This document shows, one piece after another, positions 7,714 to 29,629 of a stretch of DNA of 64,000 nucleotides. This DNA is from Oceanimonas smirnovii ATCC BAA-899 (GTDB lineage: Bacteria > Pseudomonadota > Gammaproteobacteria > Enterobacterales > Aeromonadaceae). The translations under genes were made by a program, and so were the position numbers. The notes under the pieces were generated by a model, which was not told the DNA's origin, searched no databases, and was given only the letters and a program-made list of their open reading frames with translations. Position 1 is the first letter of the stretch. Each line of letters opens with the position of its first letter. The stretch is from positions 1 to 64,000 of the forward strand of contig NZ_KB908469.1 of assembly GCF_000381965.1 (NCBI RefSeq), written 5' to 3'.

Positions 7714-7761
7714 GAGCAGTGGGCATGAGCAGGCATAGGTAAGAACAAATAGGTAGTAATA

Positions 7762-10700: not shown

Positions 10701-11280
10701 GCGGGATAAGTTTTTTGAGCAGCATTGTAAGCTGTTTCAGCATCGTCCCTTTATCTGGCAGGTATGGGATGGCGTAAAAGACGGCTTTAGTGCCATGGTC
10801 AACTATCATCGGTTCGATGCCAATAATCTGGACCGTTTAATTTATACCTACTTAAATGACTGGATTAGCCAGCAAGCGGAAAATGTAAAGCAGCATGTGG
10901 ATGGTGCCGAAATTCGCCTGGCTGCCGCCCAAAACTTGAAAACCGAGTTAGAGGCCATTAAACAGGGCGAAAGCGGCTATGACATATTCGTACGTTGGAA
11001 GCCGCTGCACCAACAACCCATCGGTTGGCAACCGGATTTAAACGACGGCGTGCGGCTTAATATTCGTCCCTTTATGCTGGCCAAAGACGTCGGTAAAAGA
11101 GGTGCGGGTGTGCTGCGTGCCAAGCCCAATATTCATTGGAAAAAAGACCGCGGCAGCGATGTGGCCAGTGCCCCCTGGTATCACTTAGGGTTGGAGTACG
11201 GCGGCAAGGAAGGCGATCGCATTAATGATCATCACCTTACCCTGGCGGAAAAGCACCAAGCGCGGGCCAATAACCCATGA
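7762..11280 (+). CDS. pglX: BREX adenine-specific DNA methyltransferase PglX
   Basis: A 1172-residue protein, typical of PglX. The AdoMet-binding motif I is DPCCGSGHF at about residue 309. The catalytic motif IV reads TNVPY at about 506-510 instead of the usual NPPY. PglX methylates the N6 position of adenine in a non-palindromic BREX site to mark host DNA. The N-terminal ~230 residues are helical, the methylase fold follows, and the C-terminal part should hold the target-recognition domain. From about 9730 to 10330 the codon use changes sharply: Arg becomes AGA/AGG/CGA instead of CGC/CGT, and the stretch is richer in A and T. This suggests a swapped recognition segment. The stop overlaps the pglZ start (ATGA). 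Confidence 0.9.
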   Translation: MTATFVRQALSKTLRNQLEKTVTTARNLVEKAAREEIERLGVGESSAPGYLQPADAKLRTRLRAHGRSLGDVKASDGSQQIGHLVGEVAYEHWHRMLFAYFLAQNNLLMCEGYPVSLEDCNELAPELNARSGWEAAGLLAADMLPQIFRIGSPTLAIKLPRDAVQQLEQLITSLHPDTFQAQDALGWLYQFWQSERKDAVNASGVKIGADELSPVTQLFTEPYMVSFLLDNALGAWWAKRKLTKNDVTTTTTEAELRQAASVPGVPLTYLRFVKPNASQPPSEQNAWAPAAGTFEQWPTQLSELTVIDPCCGSGHFLVAAFLMLVPLRMADEGLNAKQAIDAVLSQNLHGLELDQRCVELAAFALALEAWRYPDETGKPLGYRQLPELQLACSGVAISAAKGEWKQLAKQIAAQAQDASSKASTSNNLSIALDWLQQTFEHAPVLGSLINPQRSKAANIVNWPTLQQALNQALDSSSDQPSFEAQIAAQGLTKAAELLSKQYSWVITNVPYLARGKQNDVLKEYCEQHHANGKNDLATVFLERCLQMNTQGGHTSVVLPQNWLFLTSYKKFREQLLKQDTWNMVARMGSGAFETISGEVVKAILLGITRGQTDQTLMLDSAAEQSTHELRGLDVAGFKTAAEKAEALLVEEIKSVSQAGQLENPDCRVSLNESTGEKRLAAFADFANGIQTGDTQRFVRCVAEIPRPTEDYHFYQTTVTSTAHYAGLSQLLAWKQSGEYLELQPGSVIRGTKSWNQRGISISATGSLYATLYTGAKYDENTVVILPTDDEFLGSVWAYTSDESYHDDVRGLNQTLKVRGDLVQVFFDRKEWTEQEQLKYPNGLPKPYTNDPTQWIFHGHPCGSVIWSDENKWTEQDELRIDDTVLHIATARLLGYRWPAELDPEMELADEQRAWVNRCDELLGDLVDDDGIVCLPALRGESTAAYRLEAMLEAAYGDAWSNSVREQLLASVGAKSLEAWLRDKFFEQHCKLFQHRPFIWQVWDGVKDGFSAMVNYHRFDANNLDRLIYTYLNDWISQQAENVKQHVDGAEIRLAAAQNLKTELEAIKQGESGYDIFVRWKPLHQQPIGWQPDLNDGVRLNIRPFMLAKDVGKRGAGVLRAKPNIHWKKDRGSDVASAPWYHLGLEYGGKEGDRINDHHLTLAEKHQARANNP

Positions 11281-13307
11281 AAATTATCGATGTCTTAATT
11301 CAGCAGCTGCGCAAGCAAGGCGATAAGGCCGATTTGTTGGCCTTACCACCCAGCGCCATTTTATGGACCGATAAAGATGCGGCGTGGCAGCCGGCCATGC
11401 CACTGCTAAAAGCGGCCATGCCAGAATTGCTTGAGCTGGGTGACTACAACCCAGCACAACGCACTGGCCCAGCAGTATGGCTAAAGTGTGTGATCGCCGG
11501 GCTCGCCAACCCTCTCGAAACCGATAAGGTGCCGGTTATTTATTTACCCGGCGTATCACGCCGCGAACTCAGAGCCATTGAAAGCTGCCCTGGTCACTTA
11601 ATTCCGTTGGCCGAGTTGCAATATCGTTCCTGCTGGTGGGCCACGCCCAATAACAACCGTGATTGGAGCCTTACCGCCTTTTTGGCCAACGCTGCAATTG
11701 GCTTAGAGCTGGATATCGCTAAAGACAAAACCACCCAGGCCACCTTGGCCCAAGTGCTGGAGCCCTTGTTAGAAGCCGATGCCAGCAGCCTGCAAGGCAA
11801 GCGCATTACCAGCGCCGAGTTGCAAGCCTTGGTGGTGGAAGATCCCATTCGGGATCTACTGCACTGGTTAGATAACCCAGCCATTGCCGATAGCTGGCAA
11901 CCCATGCGCTTAGCGATATTGCAGCAATATTGCCAAAAGGAATATGGGCTAACCGCAGAGAGCGGCAGTCGCACTACCTTTTTGGCCAAGCTTTGTGAAC
12001 AGCCTGGGCCTGTTTGGTCTGCCCTATGGACTCGTTTTGAAGACATGGCAGAGCGCCTGCCTGGCTTGCTAAAGCAGCTAGAAACCGTTCAGCCCTTGGC
12101 GCTAGCGTTAAATCCTGATTGTTATTTATCCTTGGCCTTAGAAGAGGAGCAGCAGCTGGCGAACGCCTTTAGCGCCATGGCCAGCAAAAGCGACTTGGAG
12201 GTGGATGCCGAGATCACTCAGCTGCATCAGCAGCAAGCGGGTAGAGCAGAGAGTTTGTGGTCTCGCCTGGGCTATACCGTATATGCCAATGCCCTAGAGC
12301 ATTTGGCAATCTTGGTTTCATTAAAAAACAAACCCTTTGGTGGCCCCGACTTAGACGTTATGGCCAGCGCCTATCAGCGCGAGTTTTGGCAACTCGATTA
12401 CGCGGCTTTGCAGGCCATGGCTTGTGCTCAACATGATAGCCAACGTGCGGTTATTGATGGTGTGTTATCTGTGGTGTACACCCCTTGGCTTGAGCATAAA
12501 GCCGAGCACTTTCAGCACTTAGTTAAACAGCTAGGCTACCAGCGTCGCGATCGCGATATTGAAGAGCCGGCCGCTGCAGGTTACCAAGCCGCAAGCCAGG
12601 TGGTGTTTTTTGTTGACGGCCTGCGGTTTGACGTGGCCAGCGAATTTGTTAAAAGCCTAGCGGCCGATTATTCGGTACAGCTATCGGCCCAGTGGTCGGC
12701 CTTGCCATCATTAACTGCAACCGCCAAAGCCGCGGTCACTCCCATTCGAGACTTGCTCGATGGTGATGTGGACAACAGTAACTTTATTCCTAAGGTATAC
12801 AGTAGCGGCAGTGACCTTTCATCAACGAACTTCAAAACGTTGCTTCAGCAACAGGGTTGGCAATATTTAGATGGGGTGGAAACCGGCGATCCTACGGGCT
12901 TGGCCTGGGTGCAAACCGGTGATTTGGATAAAGCAGGCCATAAAGAACAAATGCGTTTACCCAGCCGAATTGATGACATTTTAAGCGAAGTTAGATCGCG
13001 CATTGATGGCTTAAAACAAGCCGGCTGGCAACATATTCGCATCGTGACTGACCATGGTTGGCTATGGGTGCCCGGTAAAATGCCCAAAGCAACCCTTGCT
13101 AAAAATGCCACCAGTGAGCAAACCCCGCGCTGCGCTATTTTAAAAAGCACTGCCACCAGCGAGCAGGTCACAGCACCCTGGTACTGGAATAACCATGTGC
13201 ACATTACCTTTGCCCCTGGCATCAGTGCCTTTCGCGCCGGCTTACACTATGACCATGGTGGCTTGAGTTTGCAGGAGTGTTTAACACCGGTGATTGATAT
13301 TCATTAG
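11277..13307 (+). CDS. pglZ: BREX phosphatase-like protein PglZ
   Basis: A 676-residue protein of the alkaline-phosphatase superfamily, overlapping pglX by 4 bases. The phosphatase core is in the last third: FFVDGLRFDV at about residues 443-452, VTDHGW at about 589-594 and YDHGGLSLQE near the C-terminus, which place the Asp and His metal ligands. PglZ binds PglX and is needed for methylation and exclusion in BREX. It is shorter than the ~800-850 residues I associate with type 1 PglZ and ends about 15 residues after the DHGG motif, so a C-terminal domain may be missing or this may be a compact subtype. No brxL follows; the next 505 bases lack an intact gene. Confidence 0.87.
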   Translation: MKIIDVLIQQLRKQGDKADLLALPPSAILWTDKDAAWQPAMPLLKAAMPELLELGDYNPAQRTGPAVWLKCVIAGLANPLETDKVPVIYLPGVSRRELRAIESCPGHLIPLAELQYRSCWWATPNNNRDWSLTAFLANAAIGLELDIAKDKTTQATLAQVLEPLLEADASSLQGKRITSAELQALVVEDPIRDLLHWLDNPAIADSWQPMRLAILQQYCQKEYGLTAESGSRTTFLAKLCEQPGPVWSALWTRFEDMAERLPGLLKQLETVQPLALALNPDCYLSLALEEEQQLANAFSAMASKSDLEVDAEITQLHQQQAGRAESLWSRLGYTVYANALEHLAILVSLKNKPFGGPDLDVMASAYQREFWQLDYAALQAMACAQHDSQRAVIDGVLSVVYTPWLEHKAEHFQHLVKQLGYQRRDRDIEEPAAAGYQAASQVVFFVDGLRFDVASEFVKSLAADYSVQLSAQWSALPSLTATAKAAVTPIRDLLDGDVDNSNFIPKVYSSGSDLSSTNFKTLLQQQGWQYLDGVETGDPTGLAWVQTGDLDKAGHKEQMRLPSRIDDILSEVRSRIDGLKQAGWQHIRIVTDHGWLWVPGKMPKATLAKNATSEQTPRCAILKSTATSEQVTAPWYWNNHVHITFAPGISAFRAGLHYDHGGLSLQECLTPVIDIH

Positions 13308-13804: not shown

Positions 13805-13819
13805 TTACCATAATGGTAA
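13805..13819. promoter_or_regulatory. Palindrome over the toxin start codon
   Basis: TTACCAT-A-ATGGTAA is a perfect 7-bp inverted repeat whose right arm contains the ATG of the toxin gene (13813). It could be an operator for antitoxin autoregulation or an RNA hairpin limiting toxin translation, which fits the absence of a strong ribosome binding site. The second copy of a direct repeat (13817-13833) overlaps it. Confidence 0.4.
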
Positions 13820-14232
13820 ACAATGTTAGTGCCTACCAAGGCCAACTACCTGGGCAAGGTGCTACAGATACTCAGCGCTTAATCCCAGGTCCAATCTACT
13901 CCGCAGCCGATGTGCTCGCGGTACTGTCTTCAGGGAGCACCATTCCATGGACAAGAGACTGCACAAGAGATTTGCAAGATCTAGCTTTTGATGATGGTGA
14001 CATCCAAGAACTGATTCGAGCGGCTGTACAAGAAGGCTGCTACATCAACTCTCAATGGTGTGTTCAACGCCCCACTGGCCCTTGGGCAGCATGTGATGCC
14101 TACCAACTGAGCCGGCAGGAGTGGAATCAGTACGCACACAAAGAGTTGCGCGTTGATTACTATGTAAAATTTGCGATAGGCAAAACCGGCAAAATACTGC
14201 TCTTGGTTTCGGCACACATGCCTACGCGTTAG
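13813..14232 (+). CDS. MqsR-like toxin of a toxin-antitoxin-chaperone module
   Basis: A 139-residue protein. The core (from about residue 30) follows the MqsR/RelE-fold layout: a helix YSAADVLAVLSS, a segment with DLAFDDGDIQELIRAA, the WAACDAY block that parallels MqsR IWQDVY, and a terminal strand pair VDYYVKFAIG and ILLLVSAHM. MqsR-type toxins are mRNA interferases. The assignment uses this pattern plus the two downstream genes. The N-terminal 25 residues are extra compared with E. coli MqsR. It is separated from the antitoxin by 10 bases with AGGAGG before the next start, so antitoxin translation should be stronger than that of the toxin. Confidence 0.7.
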   Translation: MVNNVSAYQGQLPGQGATDTQRLIPGPIYSAADVLAVLSSGSTIPWTRDCTRDLQDLAFDDGDIQELIRAAVQEGCYINSQWCVQRPTGPWAACDAYQLSRQEWNQYAHKELRVDYYVKFAIGKTGKILLLVSAHMPTR

Positions 14233-14242
14233 GAGGTCTACG

Positions 14243-14875
14243 ATGGCTGCAAAATTATGCCCGATCTGTGAGTCGGGTAATCTGCATCCTCACAGTGAAA
14301 TGGTCGAAGTGGAATTTATGGGGCACAAAGCGATGCGGCCCAGCCTCTACTCGGTCTGTGACGCCTGCGGTAGTGAACAGGCTACAGCAGCTGATCTGCG
14401 TCATAACAAGCGTGACACTATTGCCTTCAGAAAGACCGTTATGAAGCTTCTCACCGGCGCAGAAGTCAAAGCCCTGCGTAAGCAATGGGGCTTAACACAA
14501 GAAGAAGCCGCCCGAGTATTTGGTGGCGGCCCTGTTGCCTTTGCCAAATATGAGGTTAATGATGTTGTACAATCAGAATCTATGGATAAGTTACTGCGTG
14601 TTGCTCAAGCTTTTCCAGAAGTGTTAAGCAAGCTTAAGAAAGATGCGGGTGTTCAGGATATAAAGCCAGAGAGAGACCTGATTGGTGTCGGTATCATCGC
14701 ACATGCAGCCTTTAAAGAGATTTTGAAAGATATTACAAACTCTCTTGATAACAATGAGGATGATGAACAGTGGAATCATACTCAGTCTGACGTATACAAG
14801 CTAGATGATTATCGACCAAAGAAAGAAGAAGTTAAAAATATTTTAAACTATCAGCAAGAGGCGGGCTATGCCTAA
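14243..14875 (+). CDS. MqsA-like antitoxin with Zn finger and HTH
   Basis: A 210-residue protein. The N-terminal zinc finger has two CxxC pairs (CPIC at residues 6-9 and CDAC at 39-42). The HTH domain spans about 70-130 (LTQEEAARVFGGGPVAFAKYE), the same order as MqsA. The HTH should bind the operon promoter and the N-terminal part should neutralise the toxin. About 70 residues follow the HTH, including WNHTQSDVYKLDDYRPKKEE. In known TAC systems a C-terminal extension of this kind (chaperone-addiction region) is bound by the SecB-like chaperone, which is the next gene. Its end overlaps the chaperone start by 8 bases. A strong AGGAGG precedes the start. Confidence 0.82.
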   Translation: MAAKLCPICESGNLHPHSEMVEVEFMGHKAMRPSLYSVCDACGSEQATAADLRHNKRDTIAFRKTVMKLLTGAEVKALRKQWGLTQEEAARVFGGGPVAFAKYEVNDVVQSESMDKLLRVAQAFPEVLSKLKKDAGVQDIKPERDLIGVGIIAHAAFKEILKDITNSLDNNEDDEQWNHTQSDVYKLDDYRPKKEEVKNILNYQQEAGYA

Positions 14876-15335
14876 TAAAGCTGACCAACAATTACAGCAA
14901 GCTATTGAGGCCTTGGCAATAGAAGATGTATATCTATATTCAAGCCAGGCCAGCTGCACAGATAACTTTGACCCGAAATATGGTAATGGGGTTATTGAGC
15001 TTAAGGTGCAACATATGCGCAAGCTCAAAGAAGTGCAGTTATTAACGCTTGATGATAAGCGGAAAATTTTACGTGTTCAGCTACAGCTAGGAACTCGACT
15101 GGTCAAACCAGTAGAAGCAACGCCAGTTGAGGTCATGGCTTTTATAGAAGCGACCTTTATTGCTGAATACGTTCTTAAAGGTGATCTCCCCGAGGACTGC
15201 ATTCAGGCATTCGCCAATAAAAATGTCAGCTATCATATCTGGCCATATTGGCGCGAGTTTGTAAGTTCACAATGTGAAAAAATGCATCTACCTAGAATTG
15301 TGGTACCAACCATTCAAGTGCCACGGTCACAATAA
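14868..15335 (+). CDS. SecB-like chaperone of the TAC module
   Basis: A 155-residue protein with a SecB-like pattern: an N-terminal helix, four strands (VYLYSSQASC, GVIELKVQHM, KILRVQLQLGTRLV, VMAFIEATFIAEYVLKG) and a C-terminal segment NKNVSYHIWPYWREFVSSQ, where SecB has its conserved Trp-Pro-Tyr-Arg-rich helix. In toxin-antitoxin-chaperone systems such a chaperone protects an unstable antitoxin. When phage infection disturbs this, the antitoxin is lost and the toxin is freed. It is overlapped by the antitoxin gene and followed by a strong hairpin at 15348, so the three genes form one operon. Confidence 0.78.
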   Translation: MPNKADQQLQQAIEALAIEDVYLYSSQASCTDNFDPKYGNGVIELKVQHMRKLKEVQLLTLDDKRKILRVQLQLGTRLVKPVEATPVEVMAFIEATFIAEYVLKGDLPEDCIQAFANKNVSYHIWPYWREFVSSQCEKMHLPRIVVPTIQVPRSQ

Positions 15336-15536: not shown

Positions 15537-17399
15537 TCAGTCAAAAACTGAACTGCCGCCCTGCTTTTCTTTACTTGGGGTTTCGTAAAAACATTCTGTC
15601 TTTTCACCCCGCTCAAACAGTATTGCAATACTGTTATCATTCTCAATGCCTAACTCGGCGCATAGCTCTTCCATCTCATACAGCTCTATGGCGCGTTTAA
15701 ACTTCTCTACTTGAGCCGAGAGGTTATATACGCTAAAGATCACAGCATAAACGCTTTTATCTTCAACGCTTTCACCACCACCCGGATTGACCAGGGTTTC
15801 GTAATCAATATGGGTGCCTTCTTCCAGCTCTCTTAAATAGTGGAGAGTGCGATATCGCGCAGAGCTCATGCTATTGCTGAAATCATCAAAACTAACGCCA
15901 TTAACCCACTGGGCTTTAATCCAGTTTCTATCACGCCCACGCAATGCTCGATTTGTTTTTATCACTGGCCCTTCATCGTCGAGCAAGGTGTCACGAATAA
16001 TGTTAGCTGCCTGCTGCAACTGACGGTTTTGGGTAAATTGTTCAGGAGTGAAAGAATTAGAATCTAGCTGAAGGGGCACAATGGCCACATCACCAACCTG
16101 GTAGCGAGTTTGAGCTGCTAGCTCCTCGGTGTGTGGTGTTGCTTGTAGCGGAATGTCACTTAAACCACGGTCAAATCCCTGGATTTCATAGCGCTCACAA
16201 ATACGCTCAAAAGTGCTGCGTATTGCCAAAAGATCTGGCTCAGAATTAGCGAGCTCTAGGTGTGCTAAAATTTCGCTATAGGCGCTAATCGCATCGAGGT
16301 TGGTAAAGTGCAATGCTTTGTTATTGTTATGATAACCGCAAGCACGGCCGATGTTGGCTTGTACTACAGCGGCGATATTGGCTACTGTGCTGTCCCAGGT
16401 GGCTAGCAGATGATGCTTCAGTGTTTGGCCAAAGTTGATGCCGGCTCTGAAGCTTGCCACGGTAATTGCAATAACCTTCTCATCAAAATCAATGGCGGCT
16501 TCACACTCTCGCTTAAACTCAGCCAATGAGGTGAGTTCAGTTTCATCAACGCCCTTTAAACTCTGTCCGATGATGAAAACCTGTTCAGGTGAGTAACCAG
16601 CCTTAATGCAAACATTTTTTGCCTCTTGGGCATTATTGGGAGGCACCCGTATCAGCGCCCAGCCAGGGCCTGAAAAGCTTTCTAAGTGTTGAAACAACTG
16701 CCGCCGCATTAGTGAGTCGTTACAAAAATTGCGTTGATCTGGTGCAATTTTGATGATCTGCCGGTCGTGGTGCATTTGGCGAATACCACGGTACTCAGCG
16801 CTGGCCTTATGAAACACAATAGCAGTGTTGAAGTTGTGTTTTAAGATGGAGTCTTCACCGGTAGAAAACAGTGCGCTGAACGGCGTTGCCGAGACAAAAA
16901 CGACTTTACCCTGTAGGTTTTCTTGCTCAAGGTAGTTAAACACACCTTTATAGCGAATTGCCGACTTTGCCGAGCCATAGTGGCATTCGTCAATAATGAT
17001 CAGTTTGGGTGGGTGTTGTTTAAAGTCGCGAGCAATTGCTGAGCGAAAATGAGTAAAGTTACTGACTACGGTATTGCGGGCGGGCAGGAGATCTTCTTGA
17101 GCTTGCTCAAGTAGGGCTGTATCCGCCATGGTAACCAGGTAGAGCACATCTTTCAGTTGCTGTTTATCGCATAGTTGCTGATCGTTCAGGCTGTTGCGTT
17201 GTAAACAGGCCAGAGCCAGGGCAATGCCGGATTTACCCGATTGCATTTCAGCGGCTAACACAACGGCCCTGGAGCCGCTGTTGAGTTTTTCAAAGGTTCT
17301 TTTTGCCGCTTGGTGTTGGTGCTCGAAGGTGTGTGCCGTCAACGCGCTGTTAACGCGTTGACGGTGTTTCTCGGCTTGGAAAGTGACTCCTGACTGCAT
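15537..17399 (-). CDS. SF2 helicase-like ATPase, copy B
   Basis: A 620-residue protein with the superfamily-2 motifs in order: Walker A EMQSGKSG at residues 51-58, DECH box (LIIIDECHYG) at 133-142, SATPF, motif V SFRAGINFG and motif VI QANIGRACGY. It is a clear paralogue of the adjacent upstream gene, with the same motifs and the same C-terminal blocks (NWIKAQWVNG, and YAVIFSVYN near the end), but lacks the coiled-coil insertion after motif III. No nuclease, methylase or restriction domain is visible. The ATG shares one base with the stop of the upstream gene (TAATG), implying translational coupling and probably a hetero-complex. Exact function unknown; a nucleic-acid translocase with a role in phage defence is inferred from the setting. 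Confidence 0.75.
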   Translation of the reverse strand: MQSGVTFQAEKHRQRVNSALTAHTFEHQHQAAKRTFEKLNSGSRAVVLAAEMQSGKSGIALALACLQRNSLNDQQLCDKQQLKDVLYLVTMADTALLEQAQEDLLPARNTVVSNFTHFRSAIARDFKQHPPKLIIIDECHYGSAKSAIRYKGVFNYLEQENLQGKVVFVSATPFSALFSTGEDSILKHNFNTAIVFHKASAEYRGIRQMHHDRQIIKIAPDQRNFCNDSLMRRQLFQHLESFSGPGWALIRVPPNNAQEAKNVCIKAGYSPEQVFIIGQSLKGVDETELTSLAEFKRECEAAIDFDEKVIAITVASFRAGINFGQTLKHHLLATWDSTVANIAAVVQANIGRACGYHNNNKALHFTNLDAISAYSEILAHLELANSEPDLLAIRSTFERICERYEIQGFDRGLSDIPLQATPHTEELAAQTRYQVGDVAIVPLQLDSNSFTPEQFTQNRQLQQAANIIRDTLLDDEGPVIKTNRALRGRDRNWIKAQWVNGVSFDDFSNSMSSARYRTLHYLRELEEGTHIDYETLVNPGGGESVEDKSVYAVIFSVYNLSAQVEKFKRAIELYEMEELCAELGIENDNSIAILFERGEKTECFYETPSKEKQGGSSVFD

Positions 17400-19399
17400 T
17401 AGGCAAACACAACGTCAGGTATGCCAGTGAACTGGCTTTCATCGTTGACCGAGCCTTCAGACTCCGGCAGTTGGTTATGGTTGATTTTCGCCTGAGTGGT
17501 TACGTTATCGAATGCGCCCTGTGCGTATAACACCACAATGGTATTGTCTTCGGGCACCTCTAGCAGCGTTGCAATCTCTTTCATATCGGCTTCGCTCATT
17601 TGAGTTTTGGCCACTTTACGGCGAGATTGGTTATAGCGGCTAAAGATAGTAGCAGTGACAGCTTTGCTAGCTGAGTACTCGCCGTTACCTGGCATGACTA
17701 CTTGGTTATATTCAAGTGGCTCGCCTGCTTTTAATGCTTCAATGAAATGCAGGGTGCGCTCTTTCATGGTACCCAGTTTCAGTGCTTTTTCCGGGTTATC
17801 ATAGGTGTCGCCGTTAACCCATTGGGCTTTTACCCAGTTCTTTTGGGCACCACGCATGGCCCGATGGCCCTTAAGCCGCGGACCTGCATCTTTGAGGTAC
17901 TCTTCACGAATAAGGTGCAGAGCTTTGATAAATTCACCATTCTTGGTGTATTGCTCGTAGTCTGGGGCTTCGTCAAGCAGTTGTAATGGCACGACCGCAT
18001 ATTCGCCGGTACGGTAAGTTTCAACATCGCCAATTGGACGACGTTTCTTGCGCTTGACGGTAAGGCCTACATCCAAACCCTGAACATTATGCTCATCACA
18101 TAGCTCGTCAAAAAATTCGCGCAAACCATCAAAATTTGAAGCGCCAAACTCGTTAGTGTTCTCTTCTAAAAAGTTGAGCGAGTCAGCATAGGCTTGAACC
18201 GCAGGCAGGTTGGTGAAGTGCAGTACTTGGTGGTTACTGTGATAGCCACAACCACGGCCAATGTTTGCTTGCACAACGGCGGCTACGCTGGCGACAGTAC
18301 TATCCCAGGTAGAGATCAGGGTGTTTTTCATACCGCCGAAGTTAATGCCTGCGCGACAACCTGCCACGGTAATAGCAATAAACTTCTCATCGAAGCCTTC
18401 GGCATTTTCGTACTCACGTTTAAAACGTTCAATCTCGGTTTGATCGTCTTTTGGGATCCCTTGCAGTGATTTACCGATGATAAAGATATTTTCTTCAGGC
18501 ACGCCTTCGTTGATAAAGAACGATTTAGCATCGTTTACCGTACCTGCAGGCACGCGCACCAAAGACCAGCCATCGCCTTGGTGGGCTTTGAACTTGTCCA
18601 TGAACTTATCGCGCGCTGACGAAGAGGTAGTAAAGTTACGTTCGTCATCCACCAGTGGCTGCACTAAGCCAGCTTTCAGCATTTCGCGAACACCGAAATA
18701 CTCATCGCTAGTACGGTGGAACACCAGCTTGGTGCCAAAGCTTCTTCGTAGTATCGAGTTCTGGGCCGCTGTTTCTGCTTGTTGCTTCGCTTCCGCCTCC
18801 ACAGCAGTATCACCGGCTAACTGCGCTTCTTCTGCAATTTCAATCGCCTCATCATAGGCTTGCTCGGCTGCATAGAGTGCGCCGAATGGTGTGGCAGATA
18901 TAAAGACGATTTTACAGTCAGTGTTCTCTTCCAAGTAGTCAAACACACGGTTATAGCGTATGGCGTTGATGTTGGAGCCGTAGTGGCATTCATCAATGAT
19001 GATCAGCTTGGGCGGGCAGCCTTTGAAGTGTGACTCAATATCGCTCTCGAAGCGATTGAAGTTGGTGACGATTGCATTCTTGGCGGGTTTAAGGTCATCC
19101 TCGGCTTGCTGTAGCAGCGCTGTATCCACCATGGTCAGCATATAAACAGTATCTTTAAGTTGAGCGCGATCAGTGATGGCTGCATCAGATAAGCTCAAAC
19201 GTTGCAGGCATGCTAGAGCAACCGAAATACCTGATTTACCTGCTTGCATCTCAGCTGCGAGTACAACAGCGCGAGTATTGTCATCAAACGCATTAAAGGT
19301 CTTTTTGGCGGCTTCACGCTGATGCTCATGCATGCTGTCAGCATTTAGTGTGTCATGTACCTTGTCTCTCATTTTATCAGCGCGTGTCTGGGCAGACAT
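17399..19399 (-). CDS. SF2 helicase-like ATPase, copy A
   Basis: A 666-residue protein with Walker A EMQAGKSG (residues 50-57), DECH box at 136-139, SATPF at 168-172, motif V TVAGCRAGINFGG at about 344-356 and motif VI QANIGRGCGY at 377-386. Unlike copy B it carries an Ala/Glu-rich, coiled-coil-like insertion at about 178-215. The C-terminal 250 residues share blocks with copy B (WVKAQWVNG, IFSRYN) and match no nuclease I know. The start ATG has AAGGAG seven bases before it. The gene is first of the coupled pair and lies 75 bases after the 145-residue gene. Such motif sets (DECH, GRxxGY) occur in viral and restriction-type helicases. I cannot name a closer family. Confidence 0.75.
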   Translation of the reverse strand: MSAQTRADKMRDKVHDTLNADSMHEHQREAAKKTFNAFDDNTRAVVLAAEMQAGKSGISVALACLQRLSLSDAAITDRAQLKDTVYMLTMVDTALLQQAEDDLKPAKNAIVTNFNRFESDIESHFKGCPPKLIIIDECHYGSNINAIRYNRVFDYLEENTDCKIVFISATPFGALYAAEQAYDEAIEIAEEAQLAGDTAVEAEAKQQAETAAQNSILRRSFGTKLVFHRTSDEYFGVREMLKAGLVQPLVDDERNFTTSSSARDKFMDKFKAHQGDGWSLVRVPAGTVNDAKSFFINEGVPEENIFIIGKSLQGIPKDDQTEIERFKREYENAEGFDEKFIAITVAGCRAGINFGGMKNTLISTWDSTVASVAAVVQANIGRGCGYHSNHQVLHFTNLPAVQAYADSLNFLEENTNEFGASNFDGLREFFDELCDEHNVQGLDVGLTVKRKKRRPIGDVETYRTGEYAVVPLQLLDEAPDYEQYTKNGEFIKALHLIREEYLKDAGPRLKGHRAMRGAQKNWVKAQWVNGDTYDNPEKALKLGTMKERTLHFIEALKAGEPLEYNQVVMPGNGEYSASKAVTATIFSRYNQSRRKVAKTQMSEADMKEIATLLEVPEDNTIVVLYAQGAFDNVTTQAKINHNQLPESEGSVNDESQFTGIPDVVFA

Positions 19400-19474
19400 A
19401 GTGAACTCCTTATCCCTTTTTATATTTTGAATAGCCCACAGGGGGATGCTTAACAGGCACCACCCTTTTCTTTA

Positions 19475-19912
19475 TTAACCGGTGATCGGCTTCACCCGGG
19501 GAACGAAGCGCTCAGAAGCATCCTCCAAACCATCATACTCTACCCACTCTTTCAGCAGCGCCTGATTCAGATCGATAAATTTCCTGACGCGGTTGAGTAG
19601 GTCGGCCGGAGCATCCGCTTCGTTTCGGTACTCACTGCCTTGAACAGCGAACCAGTGTCCTTTTATCTTGTCTTCGGTCCCGATAGAAAAGACTTTCCTA
19701 GAAGCGCCCCATGCCTTACCTACGGAGACCTTGATACGATACGGGCTGTGTTGTCCGTCATCATCTGCACGTCCGCAATAAATGACAACACCCCCTATCC
19801 CTGTTCGCGTGGGTGATAGGTTAGCCATTTCAAACAGGTCGTAAGGAGCAAGACCCTCGACTTTCTCGAACTGCCGACCATTGTGCATCTTGTTCAAGTT
19901 ATTCTGTGGCAT
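19475..19912 (-). CDS. Hypothetical protein upstream of helicase pair
   Basis: A 145-residue protein that I do not recognise. The middle is a probable small beta-rich domain (GGVVIYCGRADDD, then YRIKVSVGKAW, then GHWFAVQGSEY). The last third is helical (LLNRVRKFIDLNQALLKEWV). There is no signal peptide or HTH. The ATG at 19912 is preceded by GGGAGTAGGG. Its position 75 bases before copy A, in the same orientation, makes it a probable partner or sensor in the twin-ATPase system. It could instead belong with the HTH gene 43 bases upstream. Confidence 0.55.
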   Translation of the reverse strand: MPQNNLNKMHNGRQFEKVEGLAPYDLFEMANLSPTRTGIGGVVIYCGRADDDGQHSPYRIKVSVGKAWGASRKVFSIGTEDKIKGHWFAVQGSEYRNEADAPADLLNRVRKFIDLNQALLKEWVEYDGLEDASERFVPRVKPITG

Positions 19913-19955
19913 ACCCTACTCCCATACAAAAGCAAAAAGCTACGCTTGAATGCGT

Positions 19956-20165
19956 TTATGAGCTCGGCTTCTCCAGCTCAAACAGCTCCCCCACCTCTAT
20001 CTCCAGATACCTGCACAGCTGTTCAATCACATCCAGCTCTACCCTGGTCGCGGTCTCGTTGTAGAGGCGGTGCAGGGTGTTTCTGTTGATACCGGTTTCC
20101 CGGGAAACCTCGGCAATTTTCTGCTTCCGTTCGCCCAGTATGCGGGACAGGTGGCACTTAATCAT
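19956..20165 (-). CDS. XRE/Cro-type HTH regulator
   Basis: A 69-residue protein that is essentially one Cro/C1-type helix-turn-helix: KIAEVSRETGINRNTLHRLYNE, then LDVIEQLCRYLEIEVGELFEL. ATG 20165 follows GGAGGTG. It is divergent from the xis-int-HD operon (start 20291), with a 125-bp shared regulatory region, so it is most likely the repressor controlling excision. It may also influence the downstream helicase operon. Small regulators of this kind are common beside AlpA/Xis genes in satellites and islands. Confidence 0.8.
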   Translation of the reverse strand: MIKCHLSRILGERKQKIAEVSRETGINRNTLHRLYNETATRVELDVIEQLCRYLEIEVGELFELEKPSS

Positions 20166-20290
20166 TTCACCTCCAAAGAGAAAAAATACCCACAGCAGTG
20201 ATAAATGACTTGCAATGGTGCTTATGTGTGCTAATTTCTCTCCTGTAGGTCATTTTTGTTCGGTGTAGAGAAAAAAGCGAGGGTTTGATT
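20166..20290. promoter_or_regulatory. Divergent control region, HTH gene / xis-int operon
   Basis: This 125-bp A/T-rich region separates the HTH regulator and the xis-like gene and must hold both promoters. It contains GAGAAAAAATACCC and, further right, GTAGAGAAAAAAGC, a repeated GAGAAAAAA word (about 20177 and 20267) that could be an operator half. I see no perfect long palindrome. Confidence 0.4.
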
Positions 20291-20506
20291 ATGGCACATA
20301 CCTATCTCACAACTGAAGAGCTGTCTGCCCGTATCAAGTACGACGCGCGCACCATCCGCCAGTGCCTCAAGGATTCAGTGCTGTTCGAGGGCGTGCATTA
20401 CATTCGCCCCTTTGGCGGCCGCAAGATCCTGTACATCTGGGAGCGGGTGGAAGAGTCCATGCTGCAGGGGGCATCCGCCCAGGATCTGATCCAGAGCATT
20501 CAGTAA
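20291..20506 (+). CDS. Excisionase/AlpA-like DNA-binding protein
   Basis: A 71-residue protein from ATG 20291 (GAGGG 8 bases before it; an upstream TTG at 20285 is less likely). The N-terminal half is a MerR/AlpA-type winged helix (YLTTEELSARIKYDARTIRQ), followed by the wing GVHYIRPFGGRKILY and IWERVEESML. Excisionases of this form bend DNA at attachment sites and direct the integrase toward excision. The gene is followed 11 bases later by the integrase with AAGGAGG as its binding site, so the two are co-expressed. Confidence 0.78.
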   Translation: MAHTYLTTEELSARIKYDARTIRQCLKDSVLFEGVHYIRPFGGRKILYIWERVEESMLQGASAQDLIQSIQ

Positions 20507-20516
20507 GGAGGACGTT

Positions 20517-21695
20517 ATGGGTGCAGTGAACGGCCGTGACGGCCGCCTTTATCTCGATTTTCGCTTCCGTGGCAAGCGCTGCCGGGAGCAGACCAAACTG
20601 GCTGATACGCCGGCCAACCGTAAAAAGCTCGGTAAGGTGCTGGCACTGATTGAGCAACAGATCCGGGCCGGCACCTTTGACTATGGCCATCATTTTCCCA
20701 ACAGCCCCAAGGTGGAGCAATTCCGGCAACTGGAGGTACTGATCCGCCAAAAGGCGGTGGGCGGTGAAATGGACTTCGCCAGTTTTGCCGGCCAGTGGCT
20801 GGACGAAAAGCGGGTGGAGTGGCGCGACAGTCAGTATGAAACCGTTGAAGGCATTTTGCGCTGCCATCTGGTGCCGGCGTTTGGCGAAATGGCCATGGGT
20901 GCCATTACCAAAAGTGACATTCTGGCGTTACGCATGAAGCTGTGTCAGGCGAATGCCGTTACCGGCAAGCGGCTGTCACCGTCACGTATTAACCACATCA
21001 TGACGGCTCTGCGCATGATCGTGAATGAGGCGGCTGAGCGGTTTGAGTATGAGAGCCCCTGGCGCAACATCAAGGCGCTGCCCATGCCCCGGGCCGAAGT
21101 GCAGCCTTTTACCCTGGAGGAGGTGCAACTGATTTTGTCACGGGTGCGACCGGACTTTCGGCCTTATTACACGGTGCGCTTTTTTACCGGCATGCGCACC
21201 GGCGAAATTGACGGCCTGACCTGGGACAACGTGGACTTTGCGGCGCGCAAAATCCACATCCATCAGGCGCTGGTACGGGGCAAGCTGGAGAAAACCAAAA
21301 CCAGCAGCTCTTACCGCAGCATCGCCATGTCCCAGCGGGTGTATGACGCTCTGTTTGAACAGTGGGAGCAGACCGGCGAGAAAAGCACTTATGTATTCTG
21401 CGCCCGCAACGGCCAGCCGCTGAATCACCGTAACGTCACTCGCCGGGTGTGGTACCCCCTGCTGGAATGGCTGGAGCTGCCCAAACGCAACCCGTACCAG
21501 ACCCGACACACGGCAGCCACTCTGTGGCTGGCCGCTGGTGAAAGCCCGGAGTGGATTGCTCGCCAGCTAGGTCATGCCAACACCAGCATGCTTTTCCGGG
21601 TCTATTCCCGCTATATCCCTAACCTGGTGGGCCGGGACGGTGCAGCCTTTGAGTCACTGCTGGATGAAGAGTTTGAACTGGAGGATGAAGCATGA
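20517..21695 (+). CDS. int: Tyrosine recombinase (integrase)
   Basis: A 392-residue phage-type integrase. The N-terminal ~60 residues form an arm-binding domain (GRLYLDFRFRGKRCREQT, DUF3596-like). A SAM-like core-binding domain follows at about 85-180. The catalytic domain holds Arg in FFTGMRTGEIDGL, Lys in KLEKTKTSSSYR, the YQTRH box (Tyr in the usual first His place, common in this subfamily), GHANTSM and the nucleophile Tyr in RVYSRY. It should carry out integration at a tRNA 3' end, fitting the 49-bp att repeats. It lies about 8 kb inside the island instead of next to an att site, which is unusual. Its stop overlaps the next start (ATGA). Confidence 0.92.
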   Translation: MGAVNGRDGRLYLDFRFRGKRCREQTKLADTPANRKKLGKVLALIEQQIRAGTFDYGHHFPNSPKVEQFRQLEVLIRQKAVGGEMDFASFAGQWLDEKRVEWRDSQYETVEGILRCHLVPAFGEMAMGAITKSDILALRMKLCQANAVTGKRLSPSRINHIMTALRMIVNEAAERFEYESPWRNIKALPMPRAEVQPFTLEEVQLILSRVRPDFRPYYTVRFFTGMRTGEIDGLTWDNVDFAARKIHIHQALVRGKLEKTKTSSSYRSIAMSQRVYDALFEQWEQTGEKSTYVFCARNGQPLNHRNVTRRVWYPLLEWLELPKRNPYQTRHTAATLWLAAGESPEWIARQLGHANTSMLFRVYSRYIPNLVGRDGAAFESLLDEEFELEDEA

Positions 21696-22561
21696 ATCCC
21701 ATGGTAATGACACATCAACGGCCCCAACTACTGTGGGCCAGCCAGTTGTTTGACGATGGCGCGCTGGCGTCATGGCAGTTCAGCGCGCCGGCGTGGCACT
21801 GCTCCCTGTTGCTGTTCCCCTGGCAGATGCAGGGCGTATGTCCCGAGGGCCAGTGGGTGCTGGCTGAACTGAACGGCCAGGATGAACAATGTCAGCTTGG
21901 TTCGGTGCAGACGCTGCCGGCTGTGGTCGGCCGGCAGCAAGTGGAGCGTCAGCTGGCCTGGCTGCCCGAGCCGGAACAGTCATTGCTGATGGATGTGTGG
22001 AGCATGCTGGCGGTAATTGACGATAAGGTGTTGCAGAATTTCTTGCTGGATATTCTGTCTAATGACGCCATCATGGCTCCTTTTTGCCAAAGCCGGGCCA
22101 GCCACCGGCATCATCACGATCAGCGCGGTGGTCTACTGGCCCATAGCCATGAAGTGGCCATGACCGCAGCCATGCTCTGCAGCCAGTATGGTTTGGGCAA
22201 AAACAGCATCTGGGTGGCTTTTGTTGGCGGGTTGCTGCACGACATCGGCAAAATTCGGCTGTATTACAACGAGAATGCCGGTATCTGTGGGCAACATGAA
22301 TCATTTAATTTCCTGGTGCTGGGGCAGCAGCTGGAGCAGCTGCGGCTAGCTTCGCCCAAGGTATTTGAAGCGCTGAGTGCCTGCCTCTCGATTAAGGTTG
22401 GACAGTATGCCGATCCCTACCAAGTGGCCAATATTGTGCGCATGTGCGACCGACTGTCGGCTGAGGTCAGCAATTGGAAAAATGCTTTTGCCCGGGTACC
22501 GGCGCACTTCTGGTATGCCCGCTGTCCACGGGATCAGCAGTGGTACAAACGGCTGGGGTAG
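21692..22561 (+). CDS. HD-domain protein, TraI_2/MobH N-terminal type
   Basis: A 289-residue protein whose central part has the TraI_2-type HD signature: HRHHHDQRGGLLAHSHEVAMTA written in two halves (HRHHHDQRGG, LLAHSHEVAM) and, 40 residues on, GLLHDIGKIRLYY. Known MobH relaxases carry this domain at the start of a much longer protein. Here only the HD part with a short C-terminus is present. Stand-alone versions downstream of integrase genes are common in islands and integrative elements. It may help mobilisation or act as a metal-dependent hydrolase. Translationally coupled to int by ATGA overlap, and followed by a terminator. Confidence 0.78.
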   Translation: MNPMVMTHQRPQLLWASQLFDDGALASWQFSAPAWHCSLLLFPWQMQGVCPEGQWVLAELNGQDEQCQLGSVQTLPAVVGRQQVERQLAWLPEPEQSLLMDVWSMLAVIDDKVLQNFLLDILSNDAIMAPFCQSRASHRHHHDQRGGLLAHSHEVAMTAAMLCSQYGLGKNSIWVAFVGGLLHDIGKIRLYYNENAGICGQHESFNFLVLGQQLEQLRLASPKVFEALSACLSIKVGQYADPYQVANIVRMCDRLSAEVSNWKNAFARVPAHFWYARCPRDQQWYKRLG

Positions 22562-22583
22562 GGAGTTATGGGGAGGAGAGGAA

Positions 22584-22613
22584 CGGGCAGACTAAAAATC
22601 TGCCTGTTTTTAT
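22584..22613. terminator. Terminator after HD gene
   Basis: A 6-bp stem GGCAGA / TCTGCC with a 7-base loop, followed by TGTTTTTATTTTT, lies 23 bases after the HD gene stop. It can serve the xis-int-HD operon. The opposite gene ends at 22662. Confidence 0.65.
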
Positions 22614-22661
22614 TTTTCTACAGAGTTAAGTTGACTTCTATTGAGCTTTTTTTAAGTGTTT

Positions 22662-23195
22662 TTAGTCTGTGACCTTTAATATGGTTTGATATTCAACCTT
22701 TACATCAATCCAGATGGAGCCAATTCTGAATATATTAGCCCAACCCAATTCAGTGCGATCGTACAGGCAATAATATAGCCAACAGTGATGTTCATGTTTC
22801 AAGGGGTGATCATAGAGCTGAAATTTATTGTGATTTACATTGTCAGCAATATTCCAAATTTCTCTTTTATGCTTTCCCATATGCTTGCCGGAGGCACATA
22901 GCTCTACTATGATATTATCATCTTCATCACTAAAGTATTGATCTTCATTGCTTAAAACAAATGTAACAACACACTCTAGCTCATAATCATTTACCCAGTC
23001 GTTTGGGTTATTTAATTTTTTCTGACAATCTTTTCTTAGTCTTGCCACTTCGCTGCCTATTTCCTTTTCAATGTCAGATAGCTGAGTATTCAATTTGAAA
23101 AGAAATTTTTTTTGTTCTTCAGAGAACTGTTCAGGCTCTATCGACCACTCCTCTATATATTGAACATATTCATCTCTCGAATTGCGGCATATCAT
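22662..23195 (-). CDS. Hypothetical protein, AT-rich orphan
   Basis: A 177-residue protein with an ATG at 23195 preceded by AAGGTG. I do not recognise it. The N-terminal half is a charged helical region (EEQKKFLFKLNTQLSDIEKEI). The second half is rich in His, Trp and Tyr (KHEHHCWLYYCLYD) and ends in strands (RIGSIWIDVKVEYQTIL). The gene is much richer in A and T than its neighbours, which suggests separate acquisition. It lies between the two recombination modules and has no operon partner. It could be an immunity or antitoxin-like orphan, but nothing shows this. Confidence 0.6.
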   Translation of the reverse strand: MICRNSRDEYVQYIEEWSIEPEQFSEEQKKFLFKLNTQLSDIEKEIGSEVARLRKDCQKKLNNPNDWVNDYELECVVTFVLSNEDQYFSDEDDNIIVELCASGKHMGKHKREIWNIADNVNHNKFQLYDHPLKHEHHCWLYYCLYDRTELGWANIFRIGSIWIDVKVEYQTILKVTD

Positions 23196-23598
23196 GTATT
23201 CACCTTTTTAATTGAAGTCAGCTATTAGGCGGGAGCCACGATGGGATGGACCAGGGGAAGAGACTGGTTCTCCTATCTGGCTAACAGGTGATCGTCGCGT
23301 TGCTGTCAACTCGTGAACAACAACCACACGATTGCCTGACCCTGAAGGCAACTGCCCTGATTTCGGCTCTATGTCTTTTCGTTCCATTCTGACGTGTCAG
23401 GATGATAATTCAATTGAGTCTATTAAGTTTGCTCTGCTTTGCGGGAAAATATCGGTCAGAATGTGAACTTAGGCAACTGGCAACAAAGATTTGGGGGATT
23501 TTTGAGCTTGTGGAGTAGGGCTGGGCCAAATGCAAGGCTAATCGGCTCAGTAAATGAGCAGTCCAAATAATTGCTTCGGATAACGCACTTTGTGGTGG
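23196..23598. other. Gap without genes between orphan gene and recombinase trio
   Basis: No open reading frame of believable composition is seen on either strand in these 403 bases. A short inverted repeat CTGAC-GT-GTCAG lies at 23389-23400. The segment probably holds the promoter of the orphan gene and the untranslated end of the recombinase operon, and may be an old junction between two elements. Confidence 0.4.
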
Positions 23599-26500
23599 TC
23601 AACTGGCCCGTTCGGCTTCTTCTTGCCAAGCTGCGATTTCCTCAGCGGAAAAGAGAATAATCGCAAGCCGGTGCAGCACTATACGCAGACTGTGGGATGA
23701 ATATCCTGCTTTGCTGGCCTCTTTGCGGTCGGCTTCCTCCTGATGTCGCAGGATCAGCCAGCCTGAGCCTTGTTCAAAGCGGGCTTTTTGCTTCATGGGA
23801 TACGGCTGAATGTTCAATGGGCCACAATGCCAGTTTTTAATGATATCTCTGTCGGTGTACCGTAACTGTAACTGCCAGCGCGGCCAGTCAAACAGCTGGG
23901 AAGCAATGGTCATGTAGCGGCGAAAGGTCTCCGCATCGTCAAAGCGCACACCCGATCGTGAGCTGTTGCAATGAGTCAGGGTATAGCGGATCAGCCAGTC
24001 CAATTTTTCCCGCTCCTGAGGAGACTGATAGAGTTTTCTGCAGCCAGCCAGCGCTTTGGCCACATCACGTTTTTCTGCCACACCCACCGGCTCGGGGGGC
24101 AGCAGTTGGTGTCGTCGACTGCGGGGGAACAGCCGTGGAAGTTGCTTTTCGGTGGTCAGTGCTCGTAATGCCAGGGCGCTTTGATGCCACTCTTCTATCT
24201 GTTCGGTACTCAGCTGATAAAACCAGGCGATTTCCCGGTGATCATAGCCGGCCTGAATTTTGCTCAGCACCGCCAGCATGGGTTCGTATTGGCGTTGTTT
24301 TACTGGTTGTAATGATGCGTTAATGCTGGCGGCGCAAGAGGCTCTGGGCGAGGTAGCGGGTCGAATATAGCGATTCAGTCGCTTGCATAAAAAGCCAGCC
24401 GTGTTGGCCGGCGTAATGACTTGTTTTCCCCTGTGACGCAGACGGATACGGTGGGGCCGTAAACCGAGCAGCACTTGTGCCTGATGGCTGGTGAGTTCGC
24501 GGCGGTGTTGCTGCAGATACAGCCCCAGCAGCAGATCGGTGAAATGCAGGTAGGTACTGAGGCTGATTTCGGGGCTGCTGTGGCCAGCAAAGGCCGCCAG
24601 TGCATGGTACCTGTCTCGCAAACGTCCGTGCCCTGTAATGAGGGTACGGATCTCCTGGCGCTTGGCATCGTCATAGGGAAGCAGTGCATCCACGCAGGTC
24701 GGCAGACGCAGTTGATCGGTGTGCAGCAGCAGTTGCAGGCGCGAAAGCGCACTGTGTCGCAGATGGTAGAGGCGGAAGTAGAGACCTCCGCTCAGATCTT
24801 TCAATAGGGTGCTCACCGCCAGCGAAAGCGGAGTGATATCCAGTTGCTCAAATTTGTTTTCAGCTGTTTGGTGAAAGAACAGCTCATTGTCACTTTTGCT
24901 TTTAATGCGCTGCTCGCTCAGGTAATGACGAACCACATCGGCTTCTTCAGCGGTTAGTAAAGGAAACAGGGGGACTTTGCGTAGTCCGGCTTCGGTTTTA
25001 TTGTTGCCATACCGGTTGTTCCTGATGAATAACCAGCCGGTTGGGGATGGCTCAATGTCACTCAAACGCAGCTTGGCCAGTTCACCCGGTCTCAGCCCGG
25101 TACGGTAGGCCATGATGAGAAAGCAGATATACGTTCGTTGCAGGTGGGGATCGAGATTGCCAAAGCATTGGAACTGTTTCAGCAAGCCACCAAAAAGTGG
25201 TTCGTCCACAACTGCTGCACTGACATGAACGACGCTATCGGTGCCTAGTATCAGGGGCTCTGGTAACGGAGGAAAGCCGAGTTGTTGTACGCCAAACACA
25301 TGCAGATCTTCCAGGCGCCCTGCCTGATACTCTCGTGCCTGCTGTTTACGAGGCCGGTTCAGCAGGCTCAAATACAGATCGTGAAATTCCTCCCCACTGT
25401 AGCTGAGCAGATCCTCTTCATCGGTGGCCATTAGCCAGTCGGCCGCAATGGCATCAAAATAACGCTTTGCGCTCGAGACGGCATTGTCACGCTCTGCAAG
25501 GTGATTGATCAGCCAGTTAACCAGCGTTGCCTCGGGCAACAGAAGTCTTTCATTACTGATCACCTCCAGTTCTTCAATGACGGCGCGTTTGCTTTTGGGA
25601 CGGGCTCGGTCTTGCTGAAACACTTCTCGTAATCGGGTCAGCAGGTAAGGCTGCGAGCGTCGCCCAACCGGCTTGCCGACTGGCCGGGGAGTGAGTTTCG
25701 GGAAGCGGGTAAAACGATGAAAATCCTGCTCATTACAGGTGAGCAGAGCCGGGCGTAACAACCGCTGCCAGTAGTCGTATGGCAAGCTGGCGCTGGGTTG
25801 TCTGCCGGTGGCGTATTCAACCAACACCTGTGGCAGTGATACGCCGTCGAGGTGCTCTGCCACTGTTATCCCGCCGGTGGCGAGCTGAGTGAGCGAGCAG
25901 TGAATGCCAAGCTCTTGCTTTAGTAAGAACAGGCACTGCTCCGGAGTAATCGGCGGTTGCCAGTCTCTGGGTTTGTGTTTCAGAAACTGCCTCAATAGTC
26001 CCAGGCTGATCGGATCAGGCGCATAAAGCACTTCGCAATGAGGTAACCGCTCGTTGGTGCCTGGATCATCTACATATAAGTTGCTGGGCTGGCCTCGGCC
26101 AGGTGCAGGCTCCAGCACCAGCCAGCAAGCTTCATTATTGCCCCTCAGCGGACGAGGCTGGTGTAGTGCCTGAGCCAGTGCAGGCCAGAGTGCCGGTCGG
26201 CCGAGGCCACCATAGAGCACCATCGACAGTAACAGCCGTGCAAACAATACATCAGGATCATTTGTATCTTCCTGCAAACGCTCAAGCCAGTGATGTTCGG
26301 CTTCAGCAATCAGGTGGGAGCTGTGCTGCCAGCGCAAGGTACGGGAAGGCCGGCGGCGACGTAATGTGATGTAAGGATCCGGTACCTGTACCGACCAAAT
26401 CCCCTGACGATTACCGATTTCCAGTTGTTTGCAGATAAAGCTGTAGGCGTACCGGTAAGCCCCTTCACTCTTCAGCTCCTGCTGTAACAGTGTATCGATT

Positions 26501-26694
26501 TGCGGCCAGGCCTTATCAAAGTCAGTATCAATAGGTGGGATTTGCAGCATGCTTGGCAGATGCTTTCTGAAAATGGCCATAGCAGCACGCAGGATCTGCG
26601 CATCCCGCTGTTGACGCTTGGCCTGACGATGTTCTCGTCCCAGCATGGTCATCAGTGCCGGCTGGGATGGAGGAAGGATCAGCGGATTGTCCAT
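23599..26694 (-). CDS. Very large tyrosine recombinase (third gene of trio)
   Basis: A 1031-residue protein with a tyrosine-recombinase catalytic domain in its middle (about residues 530-730): Arg in MAYRTGLRPGELAKLRL, Lys region NNKTEAGLRKVPLFP, the box YHLRHSALSRL, then AAFAGHSSPEISLSTYLHFTDL, giving His and the nucleophile Tyr. About 500 residues precede it and 300 follow, both without a fold I recognise, so it is far larger than ordinary integrases. It overlaps the preceding gene by 16 bases. Three-gene recombinase operons at island ends are known from gammaproteobacterial 'mobile-trio' (GMT) and GInt islands. This locus resembles them in layout, but family identity needs a profile search. 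Confidence 0.75.
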   Translation of the reverse strand: MDNPLILPPSQPALMTMLGREHRQAKRQQRDAQILRAAMAIFRKHLPSMLQIPPIDTDFDKAWPQIDTLLQQELKSEGAYRYAYSFICKQLEIGNRQGIWSVQVPDPYITLRRRRPSRTLRWQHSSHLIAEAEHHWLERLQEDTNDPDVLFARLLLSMVLYGGLGRPALWPALAQALHQPRPLRGNNEACWLVLEPAPGRGQPSNLYVDDPGTNERLPHCEVLYAPDPISLGLLRQFLKHKPRDWQPPITPEQCLFLLKQELGIHCSLTQLATGGITVAEHLDGVSLPQVLVEYATGRQPSASLPYDYWQRLLRPALLTCNEQDFHRFTRFPKLTPRPVGKPVGRRSQPYLLTRLREVFQQDRARPKSKRAVIEELEVISNERLLLPEATLVNWLINHLAERDNAVSSAKRYFDAIAADWLMATDEEDLLSYSGEEFHDLYLSLLNRPRKQQAREYQAGRLEDLHVFGVQQLGFPPLPEPLILGTDSVVHVSAAVVDEPLFGGLLKQFQCFGNLDPHLQRTYICFLIMAYRTGLRPGELAKLRLSDIEPSPTGWLFIRNNRYGNNKTEAGLRKVPLFPLLTAEEADVVRHYLSEQRIKSKSDNELFFHQTAENKFEQLDITPLSLAVSTLLKDLSGGLYFRLYHLRHSALSRLQLLLHTDQLRLPTCVDALLPYDDAKRQEIRTLITGHGRLRDRYHALAAFAGHSSPEISLSTYLHFTDLLLGLYLQQHRRELTSHQAQVLLGLRPHRIRLRHRGKQVITPANTAGFLCKRLNRYIRPATSPRASCAASINASLQPVKQRQYEPMLAVLSKIQAGYDHREIAWFYQLSTEQIEEWHQSALALRALTTEKQLPRLFPRSRRHQLLPPEPVGVAEKRDVAKALAGCRKLYQSPQEREKLDWLIRYTLTHCNSSRSGVRFDDAETFRRYMTIASQLFDWPRWQLQLRYTDRDIIKNWHCGPLNIQPYPMKQKARFEQGSGWLILRHQEEADRKEASKAGYSSHSLRIVLHRLAIILFSAEEIAAWQEEAERAS

Positions 26695-29541: not shown

Positions 29542-29617
29542 TCATTTGGTCATGATTTATACTGTGCGCGGCGGACTCATGTAGATCAAATCTTGCATCT
29601 AAATTTGTGTGGTTTTT

Positions 29618-29629
29618 GTGACCGTGACC
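29618..29629. repeat. Paired GTGACC motifs at island right end
   Basis: Two side-by-side GTGACC copies match the motif repeated at the left end (272-358). Nearby, TAGATCAAATC...TTGCATC (from 29582) and TAGATC...GATGCAAAATC (from 29636) form an interrupted inverted set. Together they make this 200-bp end a likely recombinase-binding region. Confidence 0.5.

Follow-up and report, generated by a model that had tools for sequence, protein, structure and literature searches.

The two adjacent SF2 ATPases HelA and HelB, encoded within the 64,000-nucleotide stretch of Oceanimonas smirnovii DNA analyzed here (the window), probably occupy the effector slot of a BREX variant that has a Type-1-like core (BrxA, BrxB, BrxC, PglX, and PglZ type B) and no BrxL. 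This assignment builds on direct observations: the pair is constantly linked to BREX, is inherited together with it, and occurs where BrxL is absent; both paralogues keep intact motor motifs; and PglZ is short, lacking its C-terminal domain.

The BREX operon runs along the forward strand from brxA to pglZ (2910–13307), just upstream of a toxin–antitoxin–chaperone (TAC) module, so named in the original prediction (13813–15335, forward strand), and the helicase pair on the reverse strand faces both. The operon encodes BrxA (2910–3716; 268 aa with a TTG start, the true start possibly lying further in; PADLOC BrxA PDLC02450, 1.6e-81), BrxB (3709–4257; 182 aa; PADLOC BrxB PDLC02469, 3.9e-64), the ATPase BrxC (4273–7713; 1146 aa; NCBIfam NF033441 at 827 bits against a cut-off of 400, PADLOC at 1344 bits) with the Walker A motif GFFGSGKS at residue 77, the adenine methyltransferase PglX (7762–11280; 1172 aa; PADLOC PDLC02528 at 1659 bits; NCBIfam NF033452, BREX_1_MTaseX, at 368 bits, below the cut-off of 500) with PCCGSG as motif I and TNVPY as motif IV, and a type B PglZ (11277–13307; 676 aa; NF033450 at 783 bits against a cut-off of 400). 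The hallmarks of the BREX superfamily, a PglZ-domain protein, a BrxC/PglY ATPase, and a PglX methyltransferase, are all present in the window, as are the BrxA and BrxB expected of Type 1 BREX. The core motifs of the window PglZ are intact and common to BrxL-linked PglZ, and the protein lacks the C-terminal domain. The original prediction had placed the helicases beside a TAC module and without a methylase. The TAC module does adjoin helB, but it is cargo in a variable slot, and the BREX operon upstream had been overlooked; similarly, no methylase lies within 15537–19912, but PglX makes the statement untrue of the window. A phosphatase (995–1930) that heads the island cargo resembles the PrpE and bacterial Pnkp models at scores far below their cut-offs.

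HelA (17399–19399, reverse strand, 666 aa), the first of the pair, and HelB (15537–17399, reverse strand, 620 aa) are open reading frames matched by Pfam ResIII above its gathering score (4.1e-8 and 6.4e-7, respectively). The stop of helA overlaps the start of helB by one base (TAATG), a junction that had been correctly described, and the spacing among the other loci ranges from an overlap to a gap of up to 46 bp. Across the 11 pairs identified in this analysis, all 22 proteins carry the motifs that define SF2, with Walker A (AEMQ[AS]GKSG), DECH, SATPF, motif V (ITVA..RAG[IV]NFG), and motif VI (QAN[IV]GR.[CS]GYH) intact throughout. The insert that follows motif III (33 alignment columns) was found in 11 of 11 HelA and 0 of 11 HelB, and in a tree of the 22 proteins a single branch (support 100/100) divides the HelA from the HelB sequences, B_Alishewanella being a long branch of unsure placement. 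Both the restriction of the insert to the first paralogue and the divergence of the two proteins had been proposed from the window alone, and both extend to the full set; judged on their sequences, HelA and HelB are intact, ancient paralogues that appear to have diverged into two distinct subunits.

The full-length structure model of HelA is weak (pLDDT 62) and shows only the SF2 core, with the listed fold matches being mostly SF2 helicases, and the C-terminal domain (from about residue 457), modelled at pLDDT 80, matched nothing among PDB and viral folds at E ≤ 0.001. PADLOC matches of 12 HelA and HelB members, with E-values up to 1 allowed, were limited to ZacC, REase_I, DinG, mad8, PDC-M27C, and Cas3 (best E 5.2e-5). 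A profile scan of IMG/VR gave at least 11 loci, aligned to parts of the first ATPase domain at 23–43% identity. A Vibrio plasmid protein (28% identity to HelB, 41% of HelB covered) has no Pfam match and, except for one Ig-like protein, neighbours annotated as hypothetical. A phage replication helicase was considered as a candidate identity and rejected: with a threshold of E ≤ 1e-3, HelB has no match among 50,697 phage records, and the match to phrog_16 is restricted to the first ATPase domain.

The 11 HelA–HelB pairs occur in 10 genomes, comprising the window, Aeromonas caviae, Salinibius halmophilus, Alishewanella tabrizica, and six more genomes of the window's order (e.g., G109 and G133), one of which (G779) carries two pair loci. 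At every locus the genes are in tandem, HelA then HelB, and face the pglZ of a BREX operon from the opposite strand, separated from it by nothing but cargo; brxC and pglX accompany the pair every time, within the stretch read or, for Salinibius and Alishewanella, elsewhere on the contig. Both brxA and brxB were fully read at seven loci (the window, G109, G133, G758, the second G779 locus, Salinibius, and Alishewanella), the stretches of the other four ending in or before these genes. Insertion sequences are present at the Aeromonas locus, where HelB is shortened to 563 aa. The record NZ_AP026896.1 (L005), listed as a plasmid, is 4.94 Mb in length, a size that suggests a chromosome.

This association also holds in a wider survey, which covers the BREX loci that the two PglZ models employed detect. 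Among 394 genomes of the window's order, a pair profile search (E ≤ 1e-20) matched seven and PglZ model PDLC02566 (E ≤ 1e-10) matched 14, seven at >750 bits and seven at 41–74 bits. The pair was present in 7/7 genomes with short-PglZ BREX, 0/7 with another PglZ, and 0/380 of the remainder; a one-sided Fisher test of the two PglZ groups, calculated by hand and ignoring kinship, gives P = 1/3432. Of 369 genomes drawn from the class, the window's own alone had the pair, and PglZ type B passed its cut-off in nine (the window's own and eight others) out of 15 matches in all; in 190 genomes of the phylum, the pair was again detected only in the window's own. The 394 and the 369 genomes were each taken as the same draw across paired searches, as their numbers and handles agree. 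Pairwise distances are correlated between HelA and HelB (0.92), HelA and PglZ (0.89), and HelB and PglZ (0.81), with 0/5000 permutations reaching any of these values. It should be noted that these counts are not independent, because one branch of the tree (support 86/100) sets all the pair-linked PglZ apart from the others.

The cargo between the operon and the pair is far less constant. In the window, the slot between pglZ and helB holds the TAC module, composed of an MqsA-type antitoxin (14243–14875), a gene weakly matching PD-T4-9_C (14868–15335), and a gene with no family match (13813–14232); the matches within the module were to Pfam MqsA (1.1e-17), TIGR03830, phrog_16879, and PD-T4-9_C (1.3e-4). 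Across the pair loci, cargo varies both here and between pglX and pglZ and, with one example of each kind scanned, includes a HEC-01A-like OLD ATPase, Orf5/HEC-06-like genes, PDC-M16A/B, PsyrTA, a patatin-like gene, and TAC. Salinibius has a 741-aa gene between pglZ and helB (L012:13894–16119) with no PADLOC match and with cysteine pairs near the C-terminus, possibly an unknown cargo gene, while a G779 slot (L062:4449–8486) holds a patatin-like gene with genes of 268 and 743 aa (no PADLOC match), possibly an unnamed three-gene module.

This variability bears on whether the two helicases are themselves cargo, forming an independent defence module that travels at the end of a BREX island much as TAC, PsyrTA, or PDC-M16 do. 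The pair is on its own strand and the adjoining slot holds changing defence cargo, as such a module would predict, but the cargo differs among loci while the pair is constant in 11/11, the pair was never found without the short-PglZ clade in the order-wide set, BrxL is absent where the pair occurs, and the pair co-evolves with PglZ. We therefore consider an autonomous module unlikely. The pair does look like the defence component originally predicted; the stand-alone system then envisaged is not supported, because a pair that adjoins the pglZ of a BREX operon at all 11 loci is not free-standing.

BrxL (PF13337), a criterion for Type 1 BREX, went undetected in the 10 genomes or records that carry the pair (seven of the order and three named records, the window's genome included) and was found in all 21 other genomes matching the PglZ models (seven of the order, 14 of the class). 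In the type-B loci with BrxL, brxL is directly 3' of pglZ on the same strand (9/9), and PglZ has 96–97 additional C-terminal residues (9/9). In all 11 pair loci, PglZ ends within 0–6 residues of the end of the window protein; 10 of these are natural ends, and the Aeromonas copy differs in its last residues, with an insertion sequence starting 65 bp further along. Ten other BrxL-linked PglZ could be aligned and extend 124–133 residues further, the alignment being weak (11–53 bits to the window protein), and the resulting tail count of 19 BrxL-linked proteins omits L055, L091, L093, and L094 (4 of the 14 other-PglZ loci), which have no PglZ match with the window protein. The NCBIfam PglZ_5 model ends where the window PglZ ends (residue 674 corresponds to model position 702 of 704), and the PglZ_4 model, from a BrxL type, extends 63 positions beyond that end. 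The Salmonella PglZ has a seven-strand beta-barrel at residues 749–867 (PMC12205998, partial text), a position that fits the longer tails of BrxL-linked PglZ. Type 3 PglZ lacks C-terminal domains and type 2 PglZ has a wHTH in that location, and both types have SF2 helicases and no BrxL (PMC12839542, partial text). The missing PglZ C-terminal domain appears tied to BrxL, and BrxL's absence and the loss of this domain may go back to a single evolutionary event.

BrxL is found in 76% of type 1 BREX (PMC12839542, partial text), and its role is disputed, as it is needed in E. coli and Acinetobacter and dispensable in Salmonella (PMC12205998, partial text). The Acinetobacter BrxL is dispensable for methylation and needed for full restriction (PMC9122589, partial text). 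We infer that the pair takes over this restriction role. By analogy with the studied Type 1 systems, the BREX core would locate unmethylated BREX sites via PglX, with self DNA marked by adenine methylation. Encountering foreign DNA, the BREX complex would then engage the HelA–HelB pair, probably a heteromer, which would use ATP to translocate on or unwind DNA, and this motor action could block replication and/or give PglZ single-strand access for nicking. As a counterpoint to replacement, the helicases are convergent to the operon, whereas brxL lies within it. Nor need replacement of BrxL mean an equal role, since Salmonella BREX can defend without BrxL (PMC12205998, partial text). On the broader proposal, that this is a further BREX subtype in which an obligate heteromeric SF2 motor pair replaces BrxL and PglZ lost its C-terminal beta-barrel because that domain serves a BrxL-type effector, we judge the chances to be evenly balanced.

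A different function in the same position would be that of a regulator or repair helicase that shields the host from BREX activity and does not restrict phage. Some BREX proteins are toxic if expressed without others (PMC12205998, partial text), and both helicases weakly resemble RadD (HelA 6.2e-6, 25 bits; HelB 3.8e-5, 22 bits), far below the cut-off of 720. That similarity spans the first ATPase domain only, however, like the other helicase matches of the two proteins, and BrxL, the occupant of this slot in related systems, serves restriction (PMC9122589, partial text), making a protective role quite improbable.

The helicases had also been proposed to form a system with the 145-aa protein encoded next to them (19475–19912, reverse strand), and although that gene is on the same strand approximately 75 bp from helA, a three-gene system as a conserved unit is refuted, and is almost certainly wrong in any form, because the flanks covered at the 10 other pair loci all lack the small gene, and because G010, a congener without the helicase pair, carries a 95% identical copy on the same island backbone. 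In this homologue survey the three genes did not travel together: of the 11 pair loci, the window's alone has the small gene in the flanks covered. Small genes upstream of helA elsewhere (e.g., a 111-aa ORF in G747 and G779) differ from it, and the window's genome and G010 are its sole carriers among 75 genomes of the family. G010 also has no PglZ match. Its alignment to window positions 19476–29841 spans 10,378 columns at 93.9% and takes in the integrase, three large ORFs, a 69-aa ORF, and the 145-aa gene, at the end of which (window 19476) homology stops, with different genes beyond. The 145-aa gene is therefore part of the island backbone and outside the helicase module. Its protein has no family in Pfam, PADLOC, or NCBIfam, a marginal PHROG match (0.037), no match among plasmids, phages, or PDB, and one weak relative on a viral contig (38% identity, query residues 25–82).

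The island itself spans 128–29796 (~29.6 kb) and is bounded by the 3' part of a tRNA-Asp (attL-like end, 128–176, forward strand) and an exact 49-bp repeat of it (attR-like end, 29748–29796, forward strand); part of this backbone carries other cargo in G010. Three adjoining ORFs of 1031, 742, and 213 aa (23599–29541, reverse strand; 94–96% identical in G010), of which only the 1031-aa ORF matches Phage_integrase, may form a set of three recombinases belonging to the island, and an HD-domain/MobH-like 289-aa gene (21692–22561) directly follows the tyrosine integrase.

A natural swap of BrxL bears on how BREX stops phage once recognition has taken place. Exchange of BrxL for two SF2 motors, together with the loss of a PglZ domain, would single out a DNA motor as the thing that the effector slot has to supply, and would make the PglZ C-terminal beta-barrel a candidate effector-coupling surface. 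If true, the presence of that domain across BREX types would tell which effector is recruited, a BrxL ring or an SF2 motor, and helA and helB would serve as markers for BREX loci that otherwise seem effector-less.

Several known systems invite comparison with this locus. Hachiman, Druantia, and Gabija are defence systems with helicases, and HelA and HelB gave no PADLOC match to any of them. Type 6 BREX carries BrxE and BrxD, neither of which was among the PADLOC matches of the window proteins scanned. PADLOC has models for BrxHII, the helicase of type 5 BREX, and for BrxHI, that of type 6, and 0/12 HelA and HelB members match either at E ≤ 1. Types 5 and 6 resemble the window in a Type-1-like core with helicases often in BrxL's place, BrxHII being Swi2/Snf2-like and BrxHI Ski2-like (PMC12839542, partial text). 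Besides the helicases, the type 5 models (PglZ_5 at 65 bits, cut-off 250; PglX_5 at 194, cut-off 900) and type 6 models (PglZ_6 at 49 bits, cut-off 400; PglX_6 at 209, cut-off 900) score far below their cut-offs against the window. Type 3 BREX and the BREX-related (BR) systems are alike in having an SF2 helicase and no BrxL, and type 3 also in a PglZ without the C-terminal domain; their helicases, in contrast, are Swi2/Snf2 proteins with extra domains, e.g., an inactive REase (PMC12839542, partial text), whereas the pair consists of two ResIII-like paralogues with a C-terminal domain that has no known fold relative.

A paralogous helicase pair is not described in the available part of PMC12839542, which has BrxL replaced by BrxHI or BrxHII and contains no word beginning "convergent" or "paralog", and the literature searched for BREX with two, paired, tandem, or dual helicases, or for a BREX type 7, yielded none. 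The claim that no named system has this layout accordingly stands for PADLOC and the literature searched. The closest likeness is to Type 1 BREX (PglZ type B, NF033450), with which the window shares the brxC–pglX–pglZ core. TNVPY replaces NPPY as PglX motif IV in the eight pair-linked PglX read, e.g., that of the window, and in one BrxL-linked type-B PglX (G163), the only one found among eight BrxL type-B stretches in which PglX was sought; the Aeromonas stretch (30 kb) ends before PglX. Type 1 BREX with BrxL differs in having brxL directly after pglZ and a longer PglZ, where the window has no brxL and a convergent helicase pair. Because the literature searched gives no such pair and the BrxHI and BrxHII models do not match, the locus is designated a BREX variant, apparently undescribed and unnamed, with two SF2 motors in place of BrxL. 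We class it as a variant of BREX and not as a separate kind of system.
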